In this document: positions 1 to 12,886 of the stretch, in pieces
Numbering within the stretch: the first letter of the stretch is position 1
Layout: each line of letters starts with the position of its first letter
Source of the DNA: an uncultured Pelagibacteraceae bacterium
Lineage (GTDB): Bacteria; Pseudomonadota; Alphaproteobacteria; Pelagibacterales; Pelagibacteraceae
Length of the DNA stretch: 64,000 bases
NCBI GenBank assembly: GCA_902604525.1
Contig: CACKYY010000005.1
Span: 1-64,000 of the forward strand
Reading direction: 5' to 3'
Program-made: the position numbers and the translations under genes
The notes under the pieces: model-generated
What the model saw: only the letters and a program-made list of their open reading frames with translations
Databases searched by the model: none
What the model was told of the DNA's origin: nothing

Positions 1-302
1 ACCTTTATATCTTTTTTTAGGTTTTTAAGTAAAATTGCTATGATTATACCCGGCATTCCACTACCTGAGCCTATATCTGTAGTTGTATTGCTATTAAAGT
101 CAACAATATCAATAATTTGCGCAGAATCAATAATATGGCGCTGAATTATGTCATTTTTTTCACTAAATTTATCGCTGATTAAGTTGATTTTTTCATTTTT
201 TTGCAAGATCATTGATATGTAGCTTTCAAAGTCTGAAAATGTTTCACGTGAAACATTCAGCCCAGAAAGTTTTGAGTAAGAATTTATAATTTCTTGATCC
301 AT
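1..302 (-). CDS. rsmG: 16S rRNA (guanine-N7) methyltransferase RsmG/GidB, 3' end cut by window edge
   Basis: Minus-strand translation from CAT at 300-302 gives [46 protein letters not shown]...DSAQIIDIVDFNS...DIGSGSGMPGI, a GidB-type start and SAM motif; adjacent to mnmG as is typical. Confidence 0.9.
   Translation of the reverse strand, partial: MDQEIINSYSKLSGLNVSRETFSDFESYISMILQKNEKINLISDKFSEKNDIIQRHIIDSAQIIDIVDFNSNTTTDIGSGSGMPGIIIAILLKNLKKDIK
240..255. promoter_or_regulatory. parS: parS centromere site (ParB binding)
   Basis: TGTTTCACGTGAAACA, exact 16-bp palindromic parS consensus, inside rsmG. Confidence 0.93.
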
Positions 303-2173
303 TAAGCTATATGCTTAATAGACTTTCTTTTTACGTGTGACAACAAAATATATACAGCCGCAGGAGTAATACCATCAATTCTTAAGGCCTGACCCATAGT
401 TTTAGGCTTAATTTGGTTAAATTTTGCCTTTACCTCATTTGATAGTCCTGAGAGCTTGTTATAATCAATTTTTTCAGGAATTATCAAGTTTTCATCTCTT
501 TTAAATGCAAGAATATCCGCTTTTTGCTTTTTTAAGTAACCTCTATAATGAGCATTGATTTCTATCTGCTCATCAATTTCGTTGTCATAATAAGGTATAT
601 CACTCCAAATTTCTCTAATTTTATGCATATCAACACCTTTTTGGGTTAAAATTTCATTCGAAGACCTAAGAATTCCATCTTTAGCTATCTTTATACCGTA
701 ATTTTCAGCTTTATTTGGAGAGATATGAGATTTAAACATTTTATTAGAAATATTCATTAATTTTTGAGATTTATCTAAATATATTTCCTTTCTTTGATCT
801 CCAATTAATCCAATTTCAATGCCTTTATCAGTCAATCTTTGATCAGCATTATCTGCTCTCAAGCTTAATCTATATTCTGCTCGAGAAGTAAACATCCTAT
901 AAGGTTCAGCAACGCCTTTGGTTACTAAATCATCAATCATTACCCCTATATATGCATCAGATCTATCTAATATAAACGGTTCTTGTCCCTTGACAGATAA
1001 TGCAGCATTAATCCCGGCAATAAGACCTTGTGATGCAGCTTCCTCATAACCAGTAGTTCCATTTATTTGTCCAGCTAGATAAAGATTATTAATTTTTTTA
1101 GTCTCGAGTGTTAAAAAAAGCTCCCTAGGATCTATATAGTCATATTCTATAGCATATCCAGGTCTAATAATTTTTACATTCTCTAAACCATTGATATTAT
1201 TACATATTTCTTGCTGTACTTCACTGGGGAGTGATGTCGAGATACCATTTGGGTAAATTGTATAGTCATTTAGTCCTTCTGGCTCCAAAAATATCTGATG
1301 CCTTCCTTTATCCGAAAATTTTACTATTTTATCCTCTATAGATGGACAATATCTTGGTCCAACACCTTTTATGCTACCAGAGTACATTGCGCTCTTTGAT
1401 AAATTTTTTTCTATAATATTGTGTACCTTGTGATTGGTGTATGTCATCCTACATGATACTTGTTCGTTTATATTTTTTTTAGTTAGAAATGAAAAAAAAT
1501 AAGGATCATCATCTGCAAACTGTTCTTCTAAATTTTTATAATTAATAGTTCTCGAATCTAATCGGGGAGGGGTTCCGGTTTTTAATCTTCCAATTTTAAA
1601 TTCATATTTTTGTAATTGTTCACTTAAACCTGTGGAAGGTTTCTCATCATATCTTCCTGCTGGTGTTCTTTCATCACCTATATGTATTAAACCATTTAAA
1701 AAAGTGCCTGTTGTTAGTATTAACTTACTACATGTAACTTTTTTACCTTTTTTAGTTTCAAAACCACTTATAGTGTTTTTATTAAAAATAAATTTAATAA
1801 CAGGATCAGAAAAAATGCTTAAATTACAATAATTTACAAGTTTTTCTTGCATATATTTTCGATATAAAGATCTATCAGACTGTGTTCTTGGTCCACGAAC
1901 AGCAGGACCTCTACTTCTGTTTAGCAACCTAAATTGAATTCCTGATTTGTCAGCAATCTCTCCCATAACACCATCAAGAGCATCTATCTCTCTAACTAAA
2001 TGACCTTTACCTAATCCACCAATAGCTGGATTACACGACATCTCACCAATCGTTTCAATCTTATGGGTAAATAAAGCAGTGTTAACACCTAAGCGTGCAG
2101 AAGCTGTTGCAGCTTCACAACCTGCATGTCCGCCACCGATTACTACTACATCAAATGCTAAATCATTTTTCAT
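302..2173 (-). CDS. mnmG: tRNA uridine-5-carboxymethylaminomethyl modification enzyme MnmG/GidA
   Basis: [13 protein letters not shown] motif, full-length 623 aa GidA-like protein. Confidence 0.98.
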
Positions 2174-2289
2174 CAGCTAAACTTATAGGTGATTGATTTA
2201 TTTACAAGATACCTCTTATAATTGACGAATAAGTGTTGAATCTCAACGATTTTTGAAAAAAATGACTAAAAGCCTTGATAAACTGCTTA

Positions 2290-3621
2290 TTATTTGCCTA
2301 TGCAAAAATCGTTGAAAATGCTGCCTAATATCTCCTCCACATCAACTTTTCCAACAATCATTCCAAGATGTCTCGTAGCTAATCTTAAATCTTCAGCTGC
2401 TTTATCAAAATCCTCAATTTCTTTTTTTTGATTAAAGTTTTTTAGATGATCTAAACATTGTTGAAGATGCTGTCTATGACGCTCTCTAGTTATTAATATA
2501 TCATCACTTGTAATAAATTTATTTTTTAAATTATTTTTTATTTTCAAGATTAATTCATCAATATTAGTATTTTCTTTAATTGAAATTAAAACGTGATTAA
2601 TTTTTTTTATTTTAGAATCAATATCTTTTTCTAATAGATCTGATTTATTAATCACTAAAATTGCATTTTCATCTAATAATCTCCTCAAAACATCAGTAAA
2701 ATCAAGGTTTTTAGCATCTACTACTACTAGCTTAAGGTCTGCTTCTTCTGCTCTCCTAAGTGATAATTTTATACCTTTTTTTTCGATTTCATCTTTAGAC
2801 TCTCTTATACCAGCTGTATCAGATACTATTACTGGGTAGCCATCAATATTAAGATGTGTTTCTATTACGTCTCTGGTCGTTCCTGCAATTTCTGAAACGA
2901 TTGCAACATCCCTATTTGATAAATAATTTAACAAACTAGACTTACCAGCATTGGTTGGCCCAAGAATTGCAATTTTAAAACCTTCTCTAATTCTTTCTCC
3001 AACTTTTTGATCATCCAAAATTTTTTCAATATTTTTTATAACGTCGTCTGAACTTTTTTTAATCTCATTTAAAGTATTCTTTGGTAATTCTTCATCAGGA
3101 AAATCTATTTTAGCTTCCACATGAGATAAAGTTTTTAATAATTTTTCTCTTAAAAAATTAAATTGATCAGCTGATCGACCCTTCATTATTTTGATTGCTT
3201 GTTGTCTTTGAATTTCGGTTTCGGATGAAATTAAATCAGCAACACTCTCTGCTTTGAGTAAATTTATTTTGCCATTTTGAAAAGCAAGCTTAGTAAATTC
3301 TCCAGGATCAGCTAAACGACAATTTTTTATTTTAGAAATATTAGTGTGTATAGCATCTATTACAGCTTTACTGCCGTGTATGTGTATTTCGGCCATATCC
3401 TCACCTGTATAGCTCTCAGGGCCAGGAAACCATAATATTAAACCCTCATCTATAAGCTCAGAAGTGTTGATTTTGTTGATTTTTCTGAGTGTTGCTACTC
3501 TTGGCTTAGGTACACCCTTACCGGTCATTAGCTCTATCACTTTAGAAGTATCTTCACCTGAAATTCTTACAACGGCTATACCCGAAACTCCTGGTCCACT
3601 AGATAAAGCAAATATAGTCAT
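2290..3621 (-). CDS. mnmE: tRNA modification GTPase MnmE/TrmE
   Basis: GPTNAGKSSLLN, DTAGIRES, NKSD, C-terminal FCIGK. Confidence 0.98.
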   Translation of the reverse strand: MTIFALSSGPGVSGIAVVRISGEDTSKVIELMTGKGVPKPRVATLRKINKINTSELIDEGLILWFPGPESYTGEDMAEIHIHGSKAVIDAIHTNISKIKNCRLADPGEFTKLAFQNGKINLLKAESVADLISSETEIQRQQAIKIMKGRSADQFNFLREKLLKTLSHVEAKIDFPDEELPKNTLNEIKKSSDDVIKNIEKILDDQKVGERIREGFKIAILGPTNAGKSSLLNYLSNRDVAIVSEIAGTTRDVIETHLNIDGYPVIVSDTAGIRESKDEIEKKGIKLSLRRAEEADLKLVVVDAKNLDFTDVLRRLLDENAILVINKSDLLEKDIDSKIKKINHVLISIKENTNIDELILKIKNNLKNKFITSDDILITRERHRQHLQQCLDHLKNFNQKKEIEDFDKAAEDLRLATRHLGMIVGKVDVEEILGSIFNDFCIGK

Positions 3622-3731
3622 AGTGATAATATACCTCTGTTCAAACTATAATAATATATTTTTATTTTGTATTAATCTTAAATGTAAATTTATTCAAAAA
3701 ATAACAAGATAAATATTCGAAAAAGTTTTTT

Positions 3732-5408
3732 TTATAGTTTGCTTAATTCTTTGAAGAAGTTATGCGAGAAGCTTTTTGTGTCAAACAGTGGCCCATCCAA
3801 TGCTCTATCGAAGATTTTATTTCTAATATTATTTAGTTTTTCAAGGTTATTTGAAAGTTCGATTGTTTTATCAATATAATCCTTTTCGTCTTTAGCAATC
3901 AGATATTGTAGGTCTAAATTTTTATTTATAGACTCCCCACATCTTGAATTAAAATTATAACCTTTCATTGTAAGAACTGGCACATTTTTCCAGACAGATT
4001 CAAAAGTAGTAGTAACTCCATTATATGGAAACGTATCTAAAGCTAAATCAATTTTATTATAATAATTTAAGTGTTCTTCAAATGACTTTGTATTTTCTAA
4101 AAAAATCACTGACTCAAATATTTTTTTATCTTCAAATTTTTTTTTAATTCTATAGTTACTTTGCACTTTTGATGATGATTTTAATATTAATTTTGAATTT
4201 TTTACTTTTTTTAAAATTTCAGACCAGGTATTCAAAACATTGTCATTTATTTTACTAAAATTATTAAAACAACCTAAGGTAAAATATTTATTTTTAAATG
4301 AAGGAAGTTCTGTTTTTTTTCTTTTATAGTCAAATCCGCAATGGCAATTCCATATCTTATCCATGTAAATAATTTTTTCTGAATAAAGTCTTTGTTCATC
4401 TGAATAAATTAGATTCTGATCTGTAATTATATAATCCATATTTTTCAACCCGGATGTATTGCAGTAACCTAGCCAATTTATTTGAATCCTAGAGATCCTA
4501 TTTTTAAACAGGGAAGGACGATTTCCTGAAGTCATACCCATCAAATCTACTACTATATCTAAATTTAATTTTCTAACAGTATTTATTGCTTCGGTATCAG
4601 AAAAATTTCTTATGTTTAAAGATTTATCAACCAAATTTTTGAAAATGTCTGTATATAAATCTTCTTTTTTTTGATTTAAAATTAGGTAAATTTCAAATTT
4701 TTCCTTATCATAATTCTCTAAAACTGTTTTTAAAAAGTAAGTAATTGAATGGCCATCTATGATGTCCGATGAAAGAAACCCAATTTTAAGTTTGCTATTT
4801 TTGACATCTGAAATTTTTATAAGTCTGGTATCGTTAATTTTTTCTATATTGTTATCTAGAAATTGACCTAATTTTAAAAAATCAGATTGAGACCAATTTT
4901 TATCAAAGCATTTCCAATACGCATAGGAGGTTAAGTTTCGAATTGAAAATTTTTGACTTTCAATTATTTTATTCAAATAAAATGCTATATTTTTACTATC
5001 ATTTAAAATTCTGTAGATCGAGACCATCCCCTCATTAATCTCAAGATCACTTTCACAAAAATTTTTTACCTCACTATGAAATGAAATGATTTCATCAAAA
5101 TCCACATCCTCTTTTTTTAAATGAAAATACATTAATGATGAATTAATAAAATTAGACAAACCTTTAATTGCACTTTTAGATGTCTTTTCCTTGAGAAAAG
5201 AATTTTTAAAATCATTTCTAGCTAAGCTGATATTATTTTGATCTTCTGTTTTCATTGCTAATCTACTTATACCCAGCAAATTAAGCACTTTTGATGATTT
5301 TTCGTTTTGTGGAATTTTTGTTGTAATGAAAGTTATAATTTCTAAAAATTTTTTCTGATTGTATAAGTCTTCTAAATAGATCTCGATATTTACTATCGTA
5401 TTACTCAA
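3732..5408 (-). CDS. TPR / glycosyltransferase family 41 (O-GlcNAc transferase/SPINDLY-like) protein
   Basis: KLKIGFLSSDIIDGHSITYFLKTVLENYDKEKFEIY..., RISRIQINWLGYCNTSGLKNMDYIITD, DTFPYNGVTTTFESVWKNVPVLTMKG motifs. Confidence 0.88.
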   Translation of the reverse strand: MSNTIVNIEIYLEDLYNQKKFLEIITFITTKIPQNEKSSKVLNLLGISRLAMKTEDQNNISLARNDFKNSFLKEKTSKSAIKGLSNFINSSLMYFHLKKEDVDFDEIISFHSEVKNFCESDLEINEGMVSIYRILNDSKNIAFYLNKIIESQKFSIRNLTSYAYWKCFDKNWSQSDFLKLGQFLDNNIEKINDTRLIKISDVKNSKLKIGFLSSDIIDGHSITYFLKTVLENYDKEKFEIYLILNQKKEDLYTDIFKNLVDKSLNIRNFSDTEAINTVRKLNLDIVVDLMGMTSGNRPSLFKNRISRIQINWLGYCNTSGLKNMDYIITDQNLIYSDEQRLYSEKIIYMDKIWNCHCGFDYKRKKTELPSFKNKYFTLGCFNNFSKINDNVLNTWSEILKKVKNSKLILKSSSKVQSNYRIKKKFEDKKIFESVIFLENTKSFEEHLNYYNKIDLALDTFPYNGVTTTFESVWKNVPVLTMKGYNFNSRCGESINKNLDLQYLIAKDEKDYIDKTIELSNNLEKLNNIRNKIFDRALDGPLFDTKSFSHNFFKELSKL

Positions 5409-5413
5409 TTTAA

Positions 5414-6682
5414 CTAAGCAGGCTTGTTCATAGAATTGAAAAACTCTGAATTATTTTTTGTGTCTTTTAATTTTGAATTTATAAATTCTATAGCATCCAT
5501 GGTTCCCATTGGTGCAATTATTCTTCTAAGAACATTCATTTTTTGCAAGTCATTTTTATCAAATAACAATTCTTCTCTTCTTGTTCCCGATTTCGTTATA
5601 TCAATTGCTGGGTAAATTCTTTTGTCAGCAATTTTTCTATCTAGAACTGTTTCGCTATTACCAGTCCCCTTAAATTCCTCAAAAATTACTTCATCCATTC
5701 TACTTCCAGTATCAATCAAAGCAGTTGAGATAATTGTTAAAGAACCTCCTTCTTCAATATTTCTAGCTGCACCGAAAAATCTCTTTGGTCTTTGAAGTGC
5801 ATTGGCATCGACACCGCCTGTTAGAACTTTTCCTGAACTTGGTATGACCGCATTGTAAGCTCTTCCCAATCTTGTTATTGAGTCTAAAAGAATAACTACA
5901 TCTTTTTTGTGTTCGGTTAATCTTTTTGCTTTTTCAATAACCATCTCAGCTACAGCAACGTGTCTTTGAGCAGGTTCATCAAAAGTTGAGCTAATTACTT
6001 CACCTTTTACTGTTCTTTGCATGTCTGTTACTTCTTCTGGACGTTCATCAATTAACAATACAATTAAATAACATTCTGGATAATTTTTCGCTATAGAGTT
6101 AGCAATACTCTGTAAAATCATTGTTTTACCTGCTTTGGGAGGTGAAATTATTATAGATCTTTGTCCTTTACCAATCGGACTAACCAAATCAATTAGTCTA
6201 GGTGTTAAGTCTGGTTTCTTCTCTACTTTAGTGGTTTCAACTTCCATAACTAACTGCTTATCAGGATAGAGTGGTGTAAGGTTATCAAATGCAATTTTGT
6301 GTCTTGCTTTTTCTGGCTCTTCAAAATTTATTTTACTTACTTGTAGTAAAGCAAAATATCTTTCACCTTCTTTAGGTGCTCTAACAGGTCCTTCAACTGT
6401 GTCACCTGTTCTTAATCCAAATTTCCTAATCTGACTTGGGCTTACATAGATATCATCTGGTCCTGGAAGATAATTTGACTCCATTGCTCTTAGAAAACCA
6501 AAACCATCTTGCAATAGCTGCAAAACGCCCACACCAGTAATTTCCTCTTTTTCAGCTACCTTCTTAAGGATGGCAAAGAGAATTTCTTGTTTTCTTAAAG
6601 TACTTGCATTTTCAATACCAAGTTCTTCTGCTTGTGTAATAAGCTGTTCAGATGATTTTAGTTTTAACTCTTGAATGTTCAT
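5414..6682 (-). CDS. rho: transcription termination factor Rho
   Basis: [53 protein letters not shown]. Confidence 0.98.
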
Positions 6683-6748
6683 GATTAAAAATTTGATAAG
6701 GGCTTATCAGTTATCGATAATATATATTCTCTTTGTGGTTTTTCAACC

Positions 6749-7183
6749 CTAGATTGGTTTAAAAATGACCACAAATATGATCAAAATCAGTAATATTGTC
6801 GGTATTTCATTTATATAACGATAAAATTTATGAGAATGACTATTTCTGTCTATCTTGAACTGGTTGAGTAATTTACCTAGATAAAAATGATACACGGTAA
6901 GGGTAATTACAAACAACAACTTCAAGAACATCCAGGTTTGACCAAGCTGTTGAAAACCAATGCTATGAATAAGCAAGAGACCAAACAGCCAAGATAGTGT
7001 CATTGCTGGAGTCATTATGTACAAATAAAGTTTCCTTTCCATCTTTTTGAAAATTTCAGAAACTTTTAATTCAGAATTGTTTTCTGCATGATAAACAAAA
7101 ATTCTTGGGAGATATAACAGACCTGCCATCCACGAAATTACAGCTATCAAGTGTAAAGATTTAAATAACAAATAAGAATTCAT
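6749..7183 (-). CDS. hemJ: HemJ-type protoporphyrinogen oxidase (membrane protein)
   Basis: SLHLIAVISWMAGLLYLPRIFVYH motif; located next to hemH and hemE. Confidence 0.88.
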   Translation of the reverse strand: MNSYLLFKSLHLIAVISWMAGLLYLPRIFVYHAENNSELKVSEIFKKMERKLYLYIMTPAMTLSWLFGLLLIHSIGFQQLGQTWMFLKLLFVITLTVYHFYLGKLLNQFKIDRNSHSHKFYRYINEIPTILLILIIFVVIFKPI

Positions 7184-7186
7184 TTT

Positions 7187-8185
7187 TTAAATATTTTTTT
7201 CAATTAAAGATTTCAATAGAAGTATATGATCATCGTTATCATTTAAACATGGAACCATATCAAAATTTTCACCTCCAGATTTTAAAAAGCTATCCTTACC
7301 TTGAATTAAGATTTCCTCTAAAGTTTCAACACAATCAGATGCAAAACCTGGACAAATTGTAAGAATATTTTTTTTGCCTTCTTTTGGTAAATTTTCTAAG
7401 GTTTTGTCTGTGTAAGGCTGCAACCATGCTTGAGGTCCAAACCTAGACTGGAATGTGGTTTTAATTTCTATAGAATTAAATTTTTCAGAGATTAGTCTGG
7501 TCGTTTTATGACAATAACAATGATAAGGATCACCCTTATCAAAATATTTTTTAGGTATTCCATGATATGAGGCAATTATTAAATCAGGTTTCCAATTTAT
7601 TTCACTGATTTTTTTATTAATAGATTTGACCAACGCATCAATATAAAGAGAATTAGATTCGTAATGAGGAATAATTTTTAGTGAAGGTTGCCACCTCATA
7701 TTCATTAAAGTCCTATAGACTTCATCACATACTGTTGCAGTTGTTGCTGCAGCGTATTGTGGATAAAGTGGCAGTATAACTAAATTTTCACAACCCTTTT
7801 CCTGAAGTTTATTTATTCTACTTTTAATACTTGGATTTCCATATCTCATAGCAAAATCTATTATTAGATTTTCTTTTTTTAAAGAATTTGAAATCTTTTC
7901 ACTTTGTTTTTGTGTATAATATAAAAGAGGAGACATATTTTCATTTTTCATCCAAATTTCTTTGTAAGCTTTAGCTGTTTTAGATGGTCTGAAAGTTAAT
8001 ATAAACAAGTTTAAAATTATTTGCCAAATTATAGGATTTACTTCTATAACTCGTTTATCAGACAAAAATTCTTTTAAATATTTCCTAATATCAAACCAGC
8101 TTGTAGAGTCTGGGGTGCCTAAATTAATAACAAGAACGCCAGTTTTTCCAAATTTAACAATTGGGTGATTATTATCAATCTTCAT
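7187..8185 (-). CDS. hemH: ferrochelatase
   Basis: GVLVINLGTPDS, PLYPQYAAATT, SYHGIPKKY, CPGFASDCVETLEEI. Confidence 0.97.
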   Translation of the reverse strand: MKIDNNHPIVKFGKTGVLVINLGTPDSTSWFDIRKYLKEFLSDKRVIEVNPIIWQIILNLFILTFRPSKTAKAYKEIWMKNENMSPLLYYTQKQSEKISNSLKKENLIIDFAMRYGNPSIKSRINKLQEKGCENLVILPLYPQYAAATTATVCDEVYRTLMNMRWQPSLKIIPHYESNSLYIDALVKSINKKISEINWKPDLIIASYHGIPKKYFDKGDPYHCYCHKTTRLISEKFNSIEIKTTFQSRFGPQAWLQPYTDKTLENLPKEGKKNILTICPGFASDCVETLEEILIQGKDSFLKSGGENFDMVPCLNDNDDHILLLKSLIEKNI

Positions 8186-9187
8186 TTAATAATCTCTCAC
8201 AATATTTACTAAACATTCAATCATGTCTGGGTTAGTTTGTGGTAGTACACCATGGCCAAGATTAAAAATATATGGATGGTCTTTAAAAATATCTAAATAT
8301 TTTAGAACTTCTTTTTTTAAATTTTCTTTATCTGTTAATAAAATTTTTGGATCTAATCCACCTTGAACAGGGATCTTTATATTTTTACTTATTGCTAAAG
8401 GGTCTACGTTATAATCGATATTTACCGCATCAGGCTTAACTATTTCACAAAATTCTTTATAATTTTTGATTTGTCTTGGAAAACAAATTACAGGAACATT
8501 TAAAGATTTAACGTAATCAACTAAATTTAAAGTTGGTGTATAAATATAATTTGGATAATCTCTTTCTTCCAAAAGGCCTGCCCAGCTATCAAAAATTTGT
8601 ATAATATTAGCACCATTTTCAATTTGGTTTTTAATATGTATCTTAAGAAATTTTTCAATAATTAATAAAATTCTATTAATTAAAAAATCATCTTTAAAGA
8701 AATCCTTTTTAATATTTTTTTTTGGAGATTGTTGATTTATCATATAAACAAGCAATGTCCATGGCGCTCCAACAAATCCAATTGTATTTTTATTCTTAGA
8801 AGACATTTCCATGCTCACAGATTTTATGGCTTTGTAAACTGGATAAATTTTTTCAACAAAATCTATTTCATCTATCTTGGACATTAATTTTATATCTAAA
8901 TCACCAAGAACTGGTCCAAAGTCTTTTTTAAATTCAACTCTTTGTTTTAATCCATATGGTAACATCAAAATATCAGAAAATATTATTGCAGCATCAAGAT
9001 CAAATCTTTTGATAGGTTGAAGAGTTATTTCTGAAGATAATTCATGATTTAAACATAATTTAATGAAGTTAGGATTTTCTTTTCTTATTTTTCTAAATTC
9101 TGGTAAATATCTTCCAGCTTGTCTCATTATCCATATAGGATTGGTAATTGTTTTTTTATTTATTATTACTTCTTGTAGTGGCGTCAT
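8186..9187 (-). CDS. hemE: uroporphyrinogen decarboxylase
   Basis: PIWIMRQAGRYLPEFR, GAPWTLLVYM, FDSWAGLL, FNLGHGVLP. Confidence 0.97.
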   Translation of the reverse strand: MTPLQEVIINKKTITNPIWIMRQAGRYLPEFRKIRKENPNFIKLCLNHELSSEITLQPIKRFDLDAAIIFSDILMLPYGLKQRVEFKKDFGPVLGDLDIKLMSKIDEIDFVEKIYPVYKAIKSVSMEMSSKNKNTIGFVGAPWTLLVYMINQQSPKKNIKKDFFKDDFLINRILLIIEKFLKIHIKNQIENGANIIQIFDSWAGLLEERDYPNYIYTPTLNLVDYVKSLNVPVICFPRQIKNYKEFCEIVKPDAVNIDYNVDPLAISKNIKIPVQGGLDPKILLTDKENLKKEVLKYLDIFKDHPYIFNLGHGVLPQTNPDMIECLVNIVRDY

Positions 9188-9460
9188 ATTAAAATTATAT
9201 ATATAATTATTGTATTAGTACTATGTTCTGTGGATTATGATGATTGTTCATTTTAAACATTATATTAACGTTTTAACCACATATATAATTAAATAAAACT
9301 CAGAAAAATCAACACTTTTTGAACTTTATTAACATTCATGTATAGTTAGATTGAATTTATTATTAATGTTAATAAAACCCTTATTTTACAGAGCGGAGCG
9401 AATAAAAAATTAAATTAAGTTATGTTATTAAAATAATACAAATTTATTAACAATTTATTC
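9188..9460. other. oriC: candidate chromosomal replication origin (oriC), hemE/ppsR intergenic type
   Basis: AT-rich gap at a complete gene-orientation switch, with DnaA-box-like 9-mers TGTGGATTA (9229-9237, minus) and TTAACCACA (9273-9281, plus), each one mismatch from TTATCCACA; synteny matches the Caulobacter/Rickettsia hemE-RP001 origin; parS 9 kb away. Confidence 0.75.
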
Positions 9461-10288
9461 ATGGTTAATACATATCAAATATATTTAATCTCGGATTCTA
9501 CTGGCGAAACTTTAGAGAGAATTTTTCTAGCACTAAAAGCCCAATTTAAAAATATTGAATATAAAATTCACTCGTATTCTTTTACCAGAACAGAAAATCA
9601 AATTTTAAAAATTTTAGAAGACGCTCAAACAAATAATAACTCAATCATTTTATACACAATCGTTGATAATAATTTGGCAAAATATTTAGCTAATACTAGT
9701 GATGACAAAAAAATTCCTTGTTTTGGTGTTCTTGGAAATCTTATTTTAAATTTTTCAAAAATTTTAAATCAAAAAGCCTCACATGAACCAAGTGGCCAAC
9801 ATATTTTAAATGAAGAATATTATGACAGAATAGAAGCTATTCAGTTTACTATGAATCATGACGATGGCAATTTATTAAATGATATTGATAAATCAGATAT
9901 AGTTTTAGTAGGGGTTAGCAGAACAAGCAAAACACCAACTTCTATTTATCTTGCAAATAAAGGGTTTAGGACCTCAAATATACCGTTAGTTAATGAAAAT
10001 TCATTGCCCGAGAAATTAAAAAAAAATCCTCATTTTACTTGTGTAGTTGGTTTAAGCACTGAGGCTGAAAGATTAGCAGATTTAAGAAAAAACAGAATGA
10101 ATTCTCTTAAAGAAAAAGATAATACAGAATATACTAATTTAGATAATATTAAGGACGAGGTTTTAAAAGCAAAAAAAACTTTTCAAAAATATAAATGGCC
10201 TGTAATTGATGTTACTAGAAAATCAGTAGAAGAGACAGCTGCATCTATTATTAAAATACACGAAATATATTCTAATAATGCAAAATAA
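9461..10288 (+). CDS. ppsR: pyruvate,phosphate dikinase/PEP synthase regulatory protein (DUF299, RP001 homologue)
   Basis: YLISDSTGETLERI, VGVSRTSKTPTSIYLANKG, YKWPVIDVTRKSVEETAA. Confidence 0.95.
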   Translation: MVNTYQIYLISDSTGETLERIFLALKAQFKNIEYKIHSYSFTRTENQILKILEDAQTNNNSIILYTIVDNNLAKYLANTSDDKKIPCFGVLGNLILNFSKILNQKASHEPSGQHILNEEYYDRIEAIQFTMNHDDGNLLNDIDKSDIVLVGVSRTSKTPTSIYLANKGFRTSNIPLVNENSLPEKLKKNPHFTCVVGLSTEAERLADLRKNRMNSLKEKDNTEYTNLDNIKDEVLKAKKTFQKYKWPVIDVTRKSVEETAASIIKIHEIYSNNAK

Positions 10289-10865
10289 CATAATTTTAGC
10301 ATCTAAGAGCAAAGTTAGAAGAGATATTTTGGAAAAAAATAATATAGCTTGCGATGTTAAACCTTCAAACATAGATGAGGACATAGTTAAAGCAAGTTTA
10401 TTAAAAGAAAAAGCCTCACCTGAAATTATTTCAAAAAATCTAGCTGAATTAAAAGCTAATAAAGTTAGTTCAAACAATTATGAACAAATCGTACTTGGTG
10501 CAGACAGTGTTATTGATTTGGATGGAGAGTTAATTTCAAAGCCACAACACAGAAAAGAGGCATTGCTAATACTAAAAAAACTTAATGGTAAAGAACATCA
10601 TTTAATTAGTTCTGTTTGTATATCTAAAAATGGATCAATGATTTGGAATTATACAGATAAAGCAAAACTCAAAATGAAAGATTTTACCGAGGAAGAACTA
10701 GAAGAATATCTCTCAAAAATTTCCGACAATGCTTTATTCGCATACAATGTGTATCAAATAGAAGGTGAGGGAAGGAAGTTGTTTTCAAAAATAACTGGAG
10801 ACGAAAACACTATAATGGGTCTCCCAATCCAGCAAATAAAAGAATACTTAAATCATATTAAATGA
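10278..10865 (+). CDS. maf: Maf-family nucleotide pyrophosphatase
   Basis: IILASKSKVRRDIL, VLGADSVIDLDGE, YQIEGEGRKLFSKITGDENTIMGLP. Confidence 0.95.
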   Translation: MQNNIILASKSKVRRDILEKNNIACDVKPSNIDEDIVKASLLKEKASPEIISKNLAELKANKVSSNNYEQIVLGADSVIDLDGELISKPQHRKEALLILKKLNGKEHHLISSVCISKNGSMIWNYTDKAKLKMKDFTEEELEEYLSKISDNALFAYNVYQIEGEGRKLFSKITGDENTIMGLPIQQIKEYLNHIK

Positions 10866-11653
10866 AAAAATATTTAGTAATAGGAAATCCAATAGATCAC
10901 TCTTTGTCTCCTGAATTGCACAATCATTGGATTAATCAATGTGGTCTTGATGCTATTTATGAAAAAAAAAAATTAGATAATAACGATTTAGAAAATTTAA
11001 TTTTAGACATTAGAAAGGGAAATATAAATGGTGTAAATGTTACAGTACCTTTTAAAAATACTATAATACCTTATTTAGATGAGTTAAGCAGTGAAGCTAA
11101 AAAAACACATTCAGTTAACACAATTTATTTGGAAAATAAAAAAATAATTGGACATAACACTGACATTGAAGGCTTTGAAACTGCAATTGAAAATATTAAC
11201 TTTGATTTTAAAAAAAAGAAGATTTTTATTTTAGGTGCAGGTGGAGTTGTTCCTTCTATTATTTATGCTTCAATAAAAATGGGATCTTCTGAAATTATGA
11301 TAAGTAACAGAACTAAGAGAAAGGCAGACGAGGTTAAAAACATTTTTAATAATATTAAATTAGTGAATTGGGGAGAAATACCAGATTTTGATGTGGTAAT
11401 AAATGCGACGAGCTTAGGATTGAATCAAGATGATAAAATAAATTTAGATTTTACCAAAGTGGGTAAAAATAAATTATTTTATGATGTGATTTATAATCCA
11501 AGTGAAACAAATTTTTTAAGCTCAGGTAAAAAATTAGGTAATAAATATGAAAATGGTAAATTAATGTTTATCTACCAGGCGTTTTCAGCATTTAAGTTGT
11601 GGCATGGTATAGAGCCATCAGTAAACGATGAGACAATTAAACTTTTAGATTGA
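10862..11653 (+). CDS. aroE: shikimate dehydrogenase
   Basis: VIGNPIDHSLSPELHN, NVTVPFK, NTDIEGF, LGAGGVVPSI. Confidence 0.97.
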   Translation: MKKYLVIGNPIDHSLSPELHNHWINQCGLDAIYEKKKLDNNDLENLILDIRKGNINGVNVTVPFKNTIIPYLDELSSEAKKTHSVNTIYLENKKIIGHNTDIEGFETAIENINFDFKKKKIFILGAGGVVPSIIYASIKMGSSEIMISNRTKRKADEVKNIFNNIKLVNWGEIPDFDVVINATSLGLNQDDKINLDFTKVGKNKLFYDVIYNPSETNFLSSGKKLGNKYENGKLMFIYQAFSAFKLWHGIEPSVNDETIKLLD

Positions 11654-12246
11654 TGATAAGAATTGGAATTTTAGGTGATATCGGATCAGGCAAAAGCTTT
11701 GTTGCTAAAAATTTTGGGTATCCAATTTTCAACGCTGATTATGAAGTTTCAAAATTATATGAGAAAAATAGAAATATTTATCAAAAATTAAAAAAAATCT
11801 TACCAGAATATATATTTGAATTTCCAATAGACAAAATACAACTCTCAAAAGCAATTCTTGCAAATAATTCAAATTTAAGAAAAATAATTAAGATAGTACA
11901 CAAAGAAATAAGGAATAAATTGCAATCTTTTTTAAAGAAACACAAGAATAAAAAATTTGTTATCTTGGATATACCTTTGCTTTTAGAAAATAAAATAAAC
12001 AAAAAAAAGGATATTTTAGTTTATGTTGAATCTAGCAAAATTGATATATCTAGAAATTTAAAGAAGAGAAAAAATTTTAATTTTAAAATATTAAGCAAAT
12101 TTAAAAAAATTCAACTTCCACTTGCTTATAAAAAAAAAAATTCTAGGTTTATTATTAAAAATAAATTTACTCAAAAATCTGTTAAAGATGGAGTAGAAAA
12201 AATTTTAAAAACTATTAAAGATGAAAGAAGTAGTTCTCGATACTGA
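11650..12246 (+). CDS. coaE: dephospho-CoA kinase (divergent, Lys-rich)
   Basis: RIGILGDIGSGKSFVAKNFG P-loop, NADYEVSKLY, ILDIPLLLEN; origin-proximal synteny aroE-coaE-dnaQ. Confidence 0.9.
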   Translation: MMIRIGILGDIGSGKSFVAKNFGYPIFNADYEVSKLYEKNRNIYQKLKKILPEYIFEFPIDKIQLSKAILANNSNLRKIIKIVHKEIRNKLQSFLKKHKNKKFVILDIPLLLENKINKKKDILVYVESSKIDISRNLKKRKNFNFKILSKFKKIQLPLAYKKKNSRFIIKNKFTQKSVKDGVEKILKTIKDERSSSRY

Positions 12247-12886
12247 AACAACTGGCCTATCAGTCAAAGAAGGACATAGAATTGTTGAGATTGGATGTGT
12301 AGAATTAGAAAATTTAATTCCAACAAAAAACAAATTTCATTGTTATTTAAATCCTGAAAGAAAAGTTTCTGAAAAAGCATTAGCAGTTCATGGATATAGT
12401 GATGAATTTTTATCTAAACAAAAAAAATTCAATGAAGTTGGAGAAGAATTTTTAGAATTTATAAAAGACAAAAAACTTGTAATTCATAATGCTGAATTCG
12501 ACCTTACACACCTAAACAATGAACTAAGTCTATTTGGTAAGAAAAATATTGATAACGAAATTGTAGATACACTTATTTTGGCTAGGGACAAGTTCCCTGG
12601 TGCCCCAGTGAGTTTGGATGCTCTTTGTAAACGTTTTAGGATTGATAATTCCAAAAGAACTCAGCACACAGCTTTAATAGACTGTGATTTATTAGCAAAA
12701 GTTTATATAAATCTCATCGATCAAAAAGAGCCAACACTAAATTTTCAAAATTCTAGCCAGGAAAAAAATCATTTGAATAATTTGAATGTTGAGTATTATA
12801 AAAAGGTTGTGAGTCCCACTCCAGAAGAAATTAGAAACCATAAAGAATATCTAAAACAACATTTAAAAAAAAACTTTTTTAATTAA
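12221..12886 (+). CDS. dnaQ: DNA polymerase III epsilon subunit (3'-5' exonuclease)
   Basis: VLDTETTGL, IVEIGCVEL, HNAEFDLTHLN, RTQHTALIDCDLLAKVY. Confidence 0.96.
   Translation: MKEVVLDTETTGLSVKEGHRIVEIGCVELENLIPTKNKFHCYLNPERKVSEKALAVHGYSDEFLSKQKKFNEVGEEFLEFIKDKKLVIHNAEFDLTHLNNELSLFGKKNIDNEIVDTLILARDKFPGAPVSLDALCKRFRIDNSKRTQHTALIDCDLLAKVYINLIDQKEPTLNFQNSSQEKNHLNNLNVEYYKKVVSPTPEEIRNHKEYLKQHLKKNFFN

Follow-up and report, generated by a model that had tools for sequence, protein, structure and literature searches.

The hemE-ppsR intergenic region

SAR11 bacteria rank with the ocean's most abundant cells, and estimates of growth from metagenomes depend on the position of the replication origin. 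In the open-access literature we found no paper that names the SAR11 origin; in the portion of PMC9589681 that was accessible, a SAR11 terminus is inferred from coverage and no origin is named. The window analyzed here is a stretch of 64 kb (positions 1-64000 of a 76-kb contig, from an assembly of 37 contigs that is 82% complete); the closest relatives that carry a name are single-cell genomes of the Pelagibacteraceae (SAR11). An earlier reading of the letters alone, called here the sequence-only reading, had proposed an oriC in the gap between hemE and ppsR, which spans 9188..9460 (273 bp, of which 50 are G+C, 18%). Skew, proximity of parS, conserved gap length and box enrichment support that proposal, and this gap is very probably the single chromosomal oriC of the SAR11 (Pelagibacteraceae) bacterium. 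Composition and synteny give its location, and a conserved array, an intact DnaA and a parS are present; the origin type, the alphaproteobacterial hemE/COG1806 kind, is already known (PMC1914354), and what is new is the array of AT-shifted boxes. The left border gene is hemE (8186..9187, minus strand), recognized by a PF01208 match, and the right border gene is ppsR (COG1806/DUF299, the RP001 homologue; 9461..10288, plus strand), recognized by a PF03618 match, so that the domain matches agree with the identities first assigned. The divergence of the surrounding genes was likewise seen in the open reading frames, which run leftward from 302 to 9187 and rightward from 9461 to 12886. An Rfam scan returned no match.

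The hemE-gap-ppsR arrangement was kept in 136 loci from at least 10 genera, a sample that includes a few genomes entered twice. Comparison of the gap across these relatives, which had been suggested along with the original proposal, showed a length of 261-294 bp (mean 271.6, sd 6.5) and conserved box positions. In the complete relative G063 (1.44 Mb), whose ppsR is 87% identical to that of the window, spacers have a median length of 2 bp, or 72 bp between divergent genes, and the sole other intergenic stretch of at least 150 bp within 15 kb of the gap measures 173 bp (at 924.7 kb). In five genomes of genus g9 (L280, L282-L285) hemE no longer adjoins ppsR; in the two genomes that were read rho stands in its place, and the gap of 348-353 bp still holds TTATNNACA-type and TTATAAACA-type sites. 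As a side observation, the ppsR match in several relatives (G110, G118, G049 and others) contains one in-frame TGA near its end, probably the natural stop read through.

GC skew and the parS segregation marker

Since the fragmented assembly of the genome itself cannot be ordered, skew was taken from relatives. The cumulative GC skew of G063 is V-shaped, with its minimum at 939,974 and its maximum about half a genome away; the gap homologous to 9188-9460 lies at 910,394-910,660, 30 kb from that minimum. SAR11 skew mostly stems from the direction of genes, so this was included as a factor in a fit of third-position skew; the best split of G063 then had its two ends at 905-950 kb and near 110 kb. 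When 400-kb regions of four genomes (G063, G035, G040 and G043) were pooled, the corrected switch fell 5-10 kb from ppsR (bootstrap 95% interval −15 to +27.5 kb), the optimum being displaced 5-10 kb toward ppsR. In each of the four genomes the raw minimum was displaced by about 30 kb toward hemE, an offset that is attributed to gene direction. The replication component of the skew is weak, with clear individual gains from G063 and G035 only and little from G040 and G043, so that the first two supply most of the pooled signal. A switch of skew at the site was thus found in relatives rather than in the fragmented assembly of the organism itself, and the prediction that the skew minimum should fall here held in G063 to within 30 kb of 1.44 Mb for the raw minimum and about 10 kb for the corrected switch. 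A search of G063 for an E. coli-type dif gave a best match that still had 7 mismatches.

A perfect parS, TGTTTCACGTGAAACA, lies at 240..255 of the window and is the only copy in the genome assembly. In G063 the parS is at the start of an rsmG-like gene, with parA and parB next in line. Of the 12 genomes searched, 9 had exactly one perfect parS, at a distance of 7-19 kb from ppsR in every case; the other three, all complete relatives searched for perfect copies only, had none. In genus g1 the site lies toward hemE, in g5, g9 and g12 toward ppsR, and such a change of side with the distance kept small would be expected from inversions around an origin.

A conserved array of DnaA-box-like sites

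The sequence-only reading had pointed to two near-consensus 9-mers in inverted orientation, and both were present on opposite strands with one mismatch each: box A, TAATCCACA, at 9229..9237 on the minus strand (the plus strand reads TGTGGATTA), which is TTATTCACA in most relatives, and box C, TTAACCACA, at 9273..9281 on the plus strand, which is TTATTAACA or TTATCAACA in relatives. Between them, a weak box-like site TTTTAAACA (9251..9259, plus strand; TTATAAACA or TTATTAACA in relatives) is the first of a tandem with a spacing of 11/22 bp, and in several species plus-strand sites at gap positions 62, 73 and 84 keep this 11-bp phase. Three further sites, overlooked in the sequence-only reading, have the DnaA-box-like form TTATTAACA: site D at 9326..9334 (plus strand), site E at 9367..9375 (minus strand), where one representative relative has an exact TTATCCACA, and site F at 9444..9452 (plus strand), just before ppsR. 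These three compare with 0.1 expected in the gap. The earlier description of few and imperfect boxes in a reduced origin therefore stands as to their imperfect, AT-shifted form and fails as to their number, since about six sites are conserved.

One-mismatch boxes are not unusual over the whole window (29 against 21.6 expected), but the two in the gap exceed its own dinucleotide shuffles (2 against 0.2, maximum 1 in 30 shuffles), and nowhere else in the window are boxes packed as densely. In 31 representative gaps the form TTATNNACA occurred 93 times, against 11.7±3.8 in dinucleotide shuffles (about 8 times as often), and in 26 further gaps, mostly from other genera, 60 times against 7.7±2.5, although these species are related and the counts across gaps are not independent. 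Elsewhere in G063 the form was not enriched, either in the other intergenic regions (10 against 11.7) or in those under 23% GC (3 against 3.6). A genome-wide count of TTATTAACA was no higher than that of its reversed control, so the enrichment is local to the gap.

Over the 136 loci four positions are clear, namely A (minus strand, mostly TTATTCACA), C (plus strand, mixed), E (minus strand) and F (plus strand), the last two mostly TTATTAACA. At matching positions TTATTAACA alternates with TTATTCACA, TTATCAACA, TTATACACA and, rarely, TTATCCACA, and it is mainly this exchange of orthologous sites with near-consensus forms that leads us to call TTATTAACA a DnaA box. An exact TTATCCACA was found in 1 of the 31 representative gaps and the strict TTATNCACA form was absent from the gap of the window; since the sites are AT-shifted, a search with TTATCCACA undercounts the array. 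DnaA itself is complete, with ATPase, helix-turn-helix and the RDHTT recognition motif. The dnaA loci (L184-L195) lie about 60-72 kb from ppsR in most complete relatives, across several genera, though not at the origin. An exact TTATCCACA in hemH (7758-7766) was considered as an outlying DnaA site and rejected; it encodes an LYPQ motif and is there in 21 of 73 loci.

A putative opening module and control sites

Read on the minus strand from box A toward hemE, the sequence is TAATCCACA-GAAC-ATA-GTA-CTA-ATA-CAATAATTATATATATAA. The repeat ATA-GTA-CTA-ATA (9213..9224, minus strand), which gives 3'-NAT-5' triplets on the plus strand 4 nt from box A, is likely a DnaA-trio, and the very AT-rich stretch TATATATAATTA (9188..9212), between the repeat and hemE, is a candidate unwinding element. 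The rule for a basal unwinding system asks for a box with at most 2 mismatches, a spacer of 0-16 and at least 3 NAN triplets (PMC8287927); here the box has 1 mismatch, the spacer is 4 and there are 4 triplets, under a rule that is lax in AT-rich DNA. Of 57 gaps, 28 had runs of at least 4 [CAT]TA triplets, where shuffles gave 4.7, and only 1 had them on the opposite strand. The [CAT]TA form alone is informative, because a test of NTA runs that leaves the first base free cannot, by its construction, tell the strands apart. The repeat is weak in several other genera and overlaps a possible hemE promoter. Its position beside the hemE-side box suggests that unwinding may proceed toward hemE.

Sites for two regulators were also counted in the gaps. 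CtrA sites of the form TTAA-N7-TTAA were not enriched (13 against 9.0 in shuffles), nor were accessory IHF sites (4 against 2.6), and the gap of the window held none of either. CtrA sites are few or absent in several Rickettsiales and so are not strictly defining. Among the OmpR-type regulators of G063, three of four of which have counterparts in the genome studied, the best score against the NCBIfam CtrA model was 124.6 bits with a cut-off of 350; since this model was built on Rhodobacterales, the absence of a CtrA gene from G063 is only probable. GANTC, the target of CcrM, of which SAR11 has a homologue (PMC3973325), was not enriched: the gaps of the 136 loci contain 3 copies in 36.9 kb, whereas the AT-rich intergenic DNA of G063 has 16 in 11.1 kb. 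Since the loci are related, this depletion is no more than suggestive.

Alternative explanations

Origins upstream of dnaA are seen in many bacteria outside the Alphaproteobacteria, and replication might start in the AT-rich gap beside rpsT, about 60 kb off on the hemE side. The distance of dnaA from ppsR, about 60-72 kb in most complete relatives checked, the 316-bp gap of 19% GC upstream of dnaA in G063, and the position of the raw skew minimum midway between dnaA and the hemE-ppsR gap would all fit such an origin. However, the corrected skew is about 20 log units worse at the dnaA position, and 0.5% of bootstraps come within 10 kb of that position; one TTATNNACA and no one-mismatch box occur in the 310-bp regions upstream of dnaA from 12 genomes (3.4 kb in total); and parS lies near hemE-ppsR. 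On the pooled corrected skew and the upstream box scan we rejected a dnaA-linked origin, 62 kb away, as highly improbable. We give equally little credence to the gap being merely a shared hemE/ppsR promoter region, with the 9-mers and TAATACTAATA acting as sites of a promoter or regulator. The two genes do diverge, ACTA is strand-specific, and a weak sigma-70-like match (TCCACA-17-AATAAT) shares bases with box A and the triplet repeat, but promoter-like matches in the gap are no more frequent than in shuffles, and the gap is far longer than the 72 bp that is the median for divergent gaps in G063. The lack of TTATNNACA enrichment in other intergenic regions and the persistence of TTATNNACA-type sites in genus g9, where rho replaces hemE, also count against a promoter-only reading, which leaves skew and parS unexplained. 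Promoter and origin can coexist, as in Caulobacter.

The gap may instead be an origin at which TTATTAACA is occupied by another AT-preferring protein, leaving DnaA with just the one or two near-consensus boxes; we regard this sub-variant of our best explanation as unlikely. It draws on the two mismatches that separate TTATTAACA from TTATCCACA and on a DnaA recognition region that looks canonical. Against it, where some species have TTATTAACA, others have TTATTCACA, TTATACACA, TTATCAACA or TTATCCACA at the orthologous site, with TTAT and ACA constant and positions 5-6 variable.

Proposed mechanism and comparison with known origins

With the hemE-ppsR gap as the chromosomal origin, DnaA, encoded about 60 kb away, would bind an array of about six 9-mers of TTATNNACA form. 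We infer that this includes the TTATTAACA sites and that a DnaA filament would start at box A, run leftward onto the top strand and pass through the 3'-NAT-5' triplets. The AT-rich 25 bp beside hemE would then open and receive the helicase, forks would depart bidirectionally from the gap, and the new origins would be segregated by ParB bound at the parS some 9 kb off. Tentatively, with somewhat less than even confidence, we see here a family-wide SAR11 variant of oriC, in which boxes moved to the TTATTAACA type under AT pressure with the usual DnaA motif, a fixed-length array (about 270 bp) combines mostly weak boxes with one trio module, CtrA and IHF control are lacking, and GANTC is avoided. 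An origin map at base level offers a fixed anchor and explains the undercount by box searches, and it makes initiation without CtrA testable.

The candidate opening module resembles the basal unwinding system of Bacillus subtilis (PMC8287927) in its box, 4-nt spacer, four NAT triplets of the expected polarity and adjoining AT-rich DNA; the SAR11 triplets are mostly not of the GAT form. With the origins of Rickettsia prowazekii and other Rickettsiales the gap shares AT-richness, sparse CtrA sites and, for Rickettsia, the hemE/COG1806 borders (PMC1914354). Consensus sequences for the DnaA box (TTATNCACA) and IHF had served to locate those origins (PMC1914354), whereas the SAR11 gap has no TTATNCACA and no IHF enrichment. 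The same borders flank Cori of Caulobacter crescentus (PMC1914354), so that the Caulobacter-type context recognized in the sequence-only reading is confirmed as to its border genes. In both, the gap is AT-rich with DnaA sites, and rsmG-parA-parB, mnmG, mnmE and rho lie on the hemE side (in the SAR11 genus studied). In contrast to Cori, the SAR11 origin has no excess of CtrA or IHF sites, and the search for a CtrA gene found none; this origin is about 270 bp long, with its boxes shifted to TTATTAACA and dnaA about 60 kb away.
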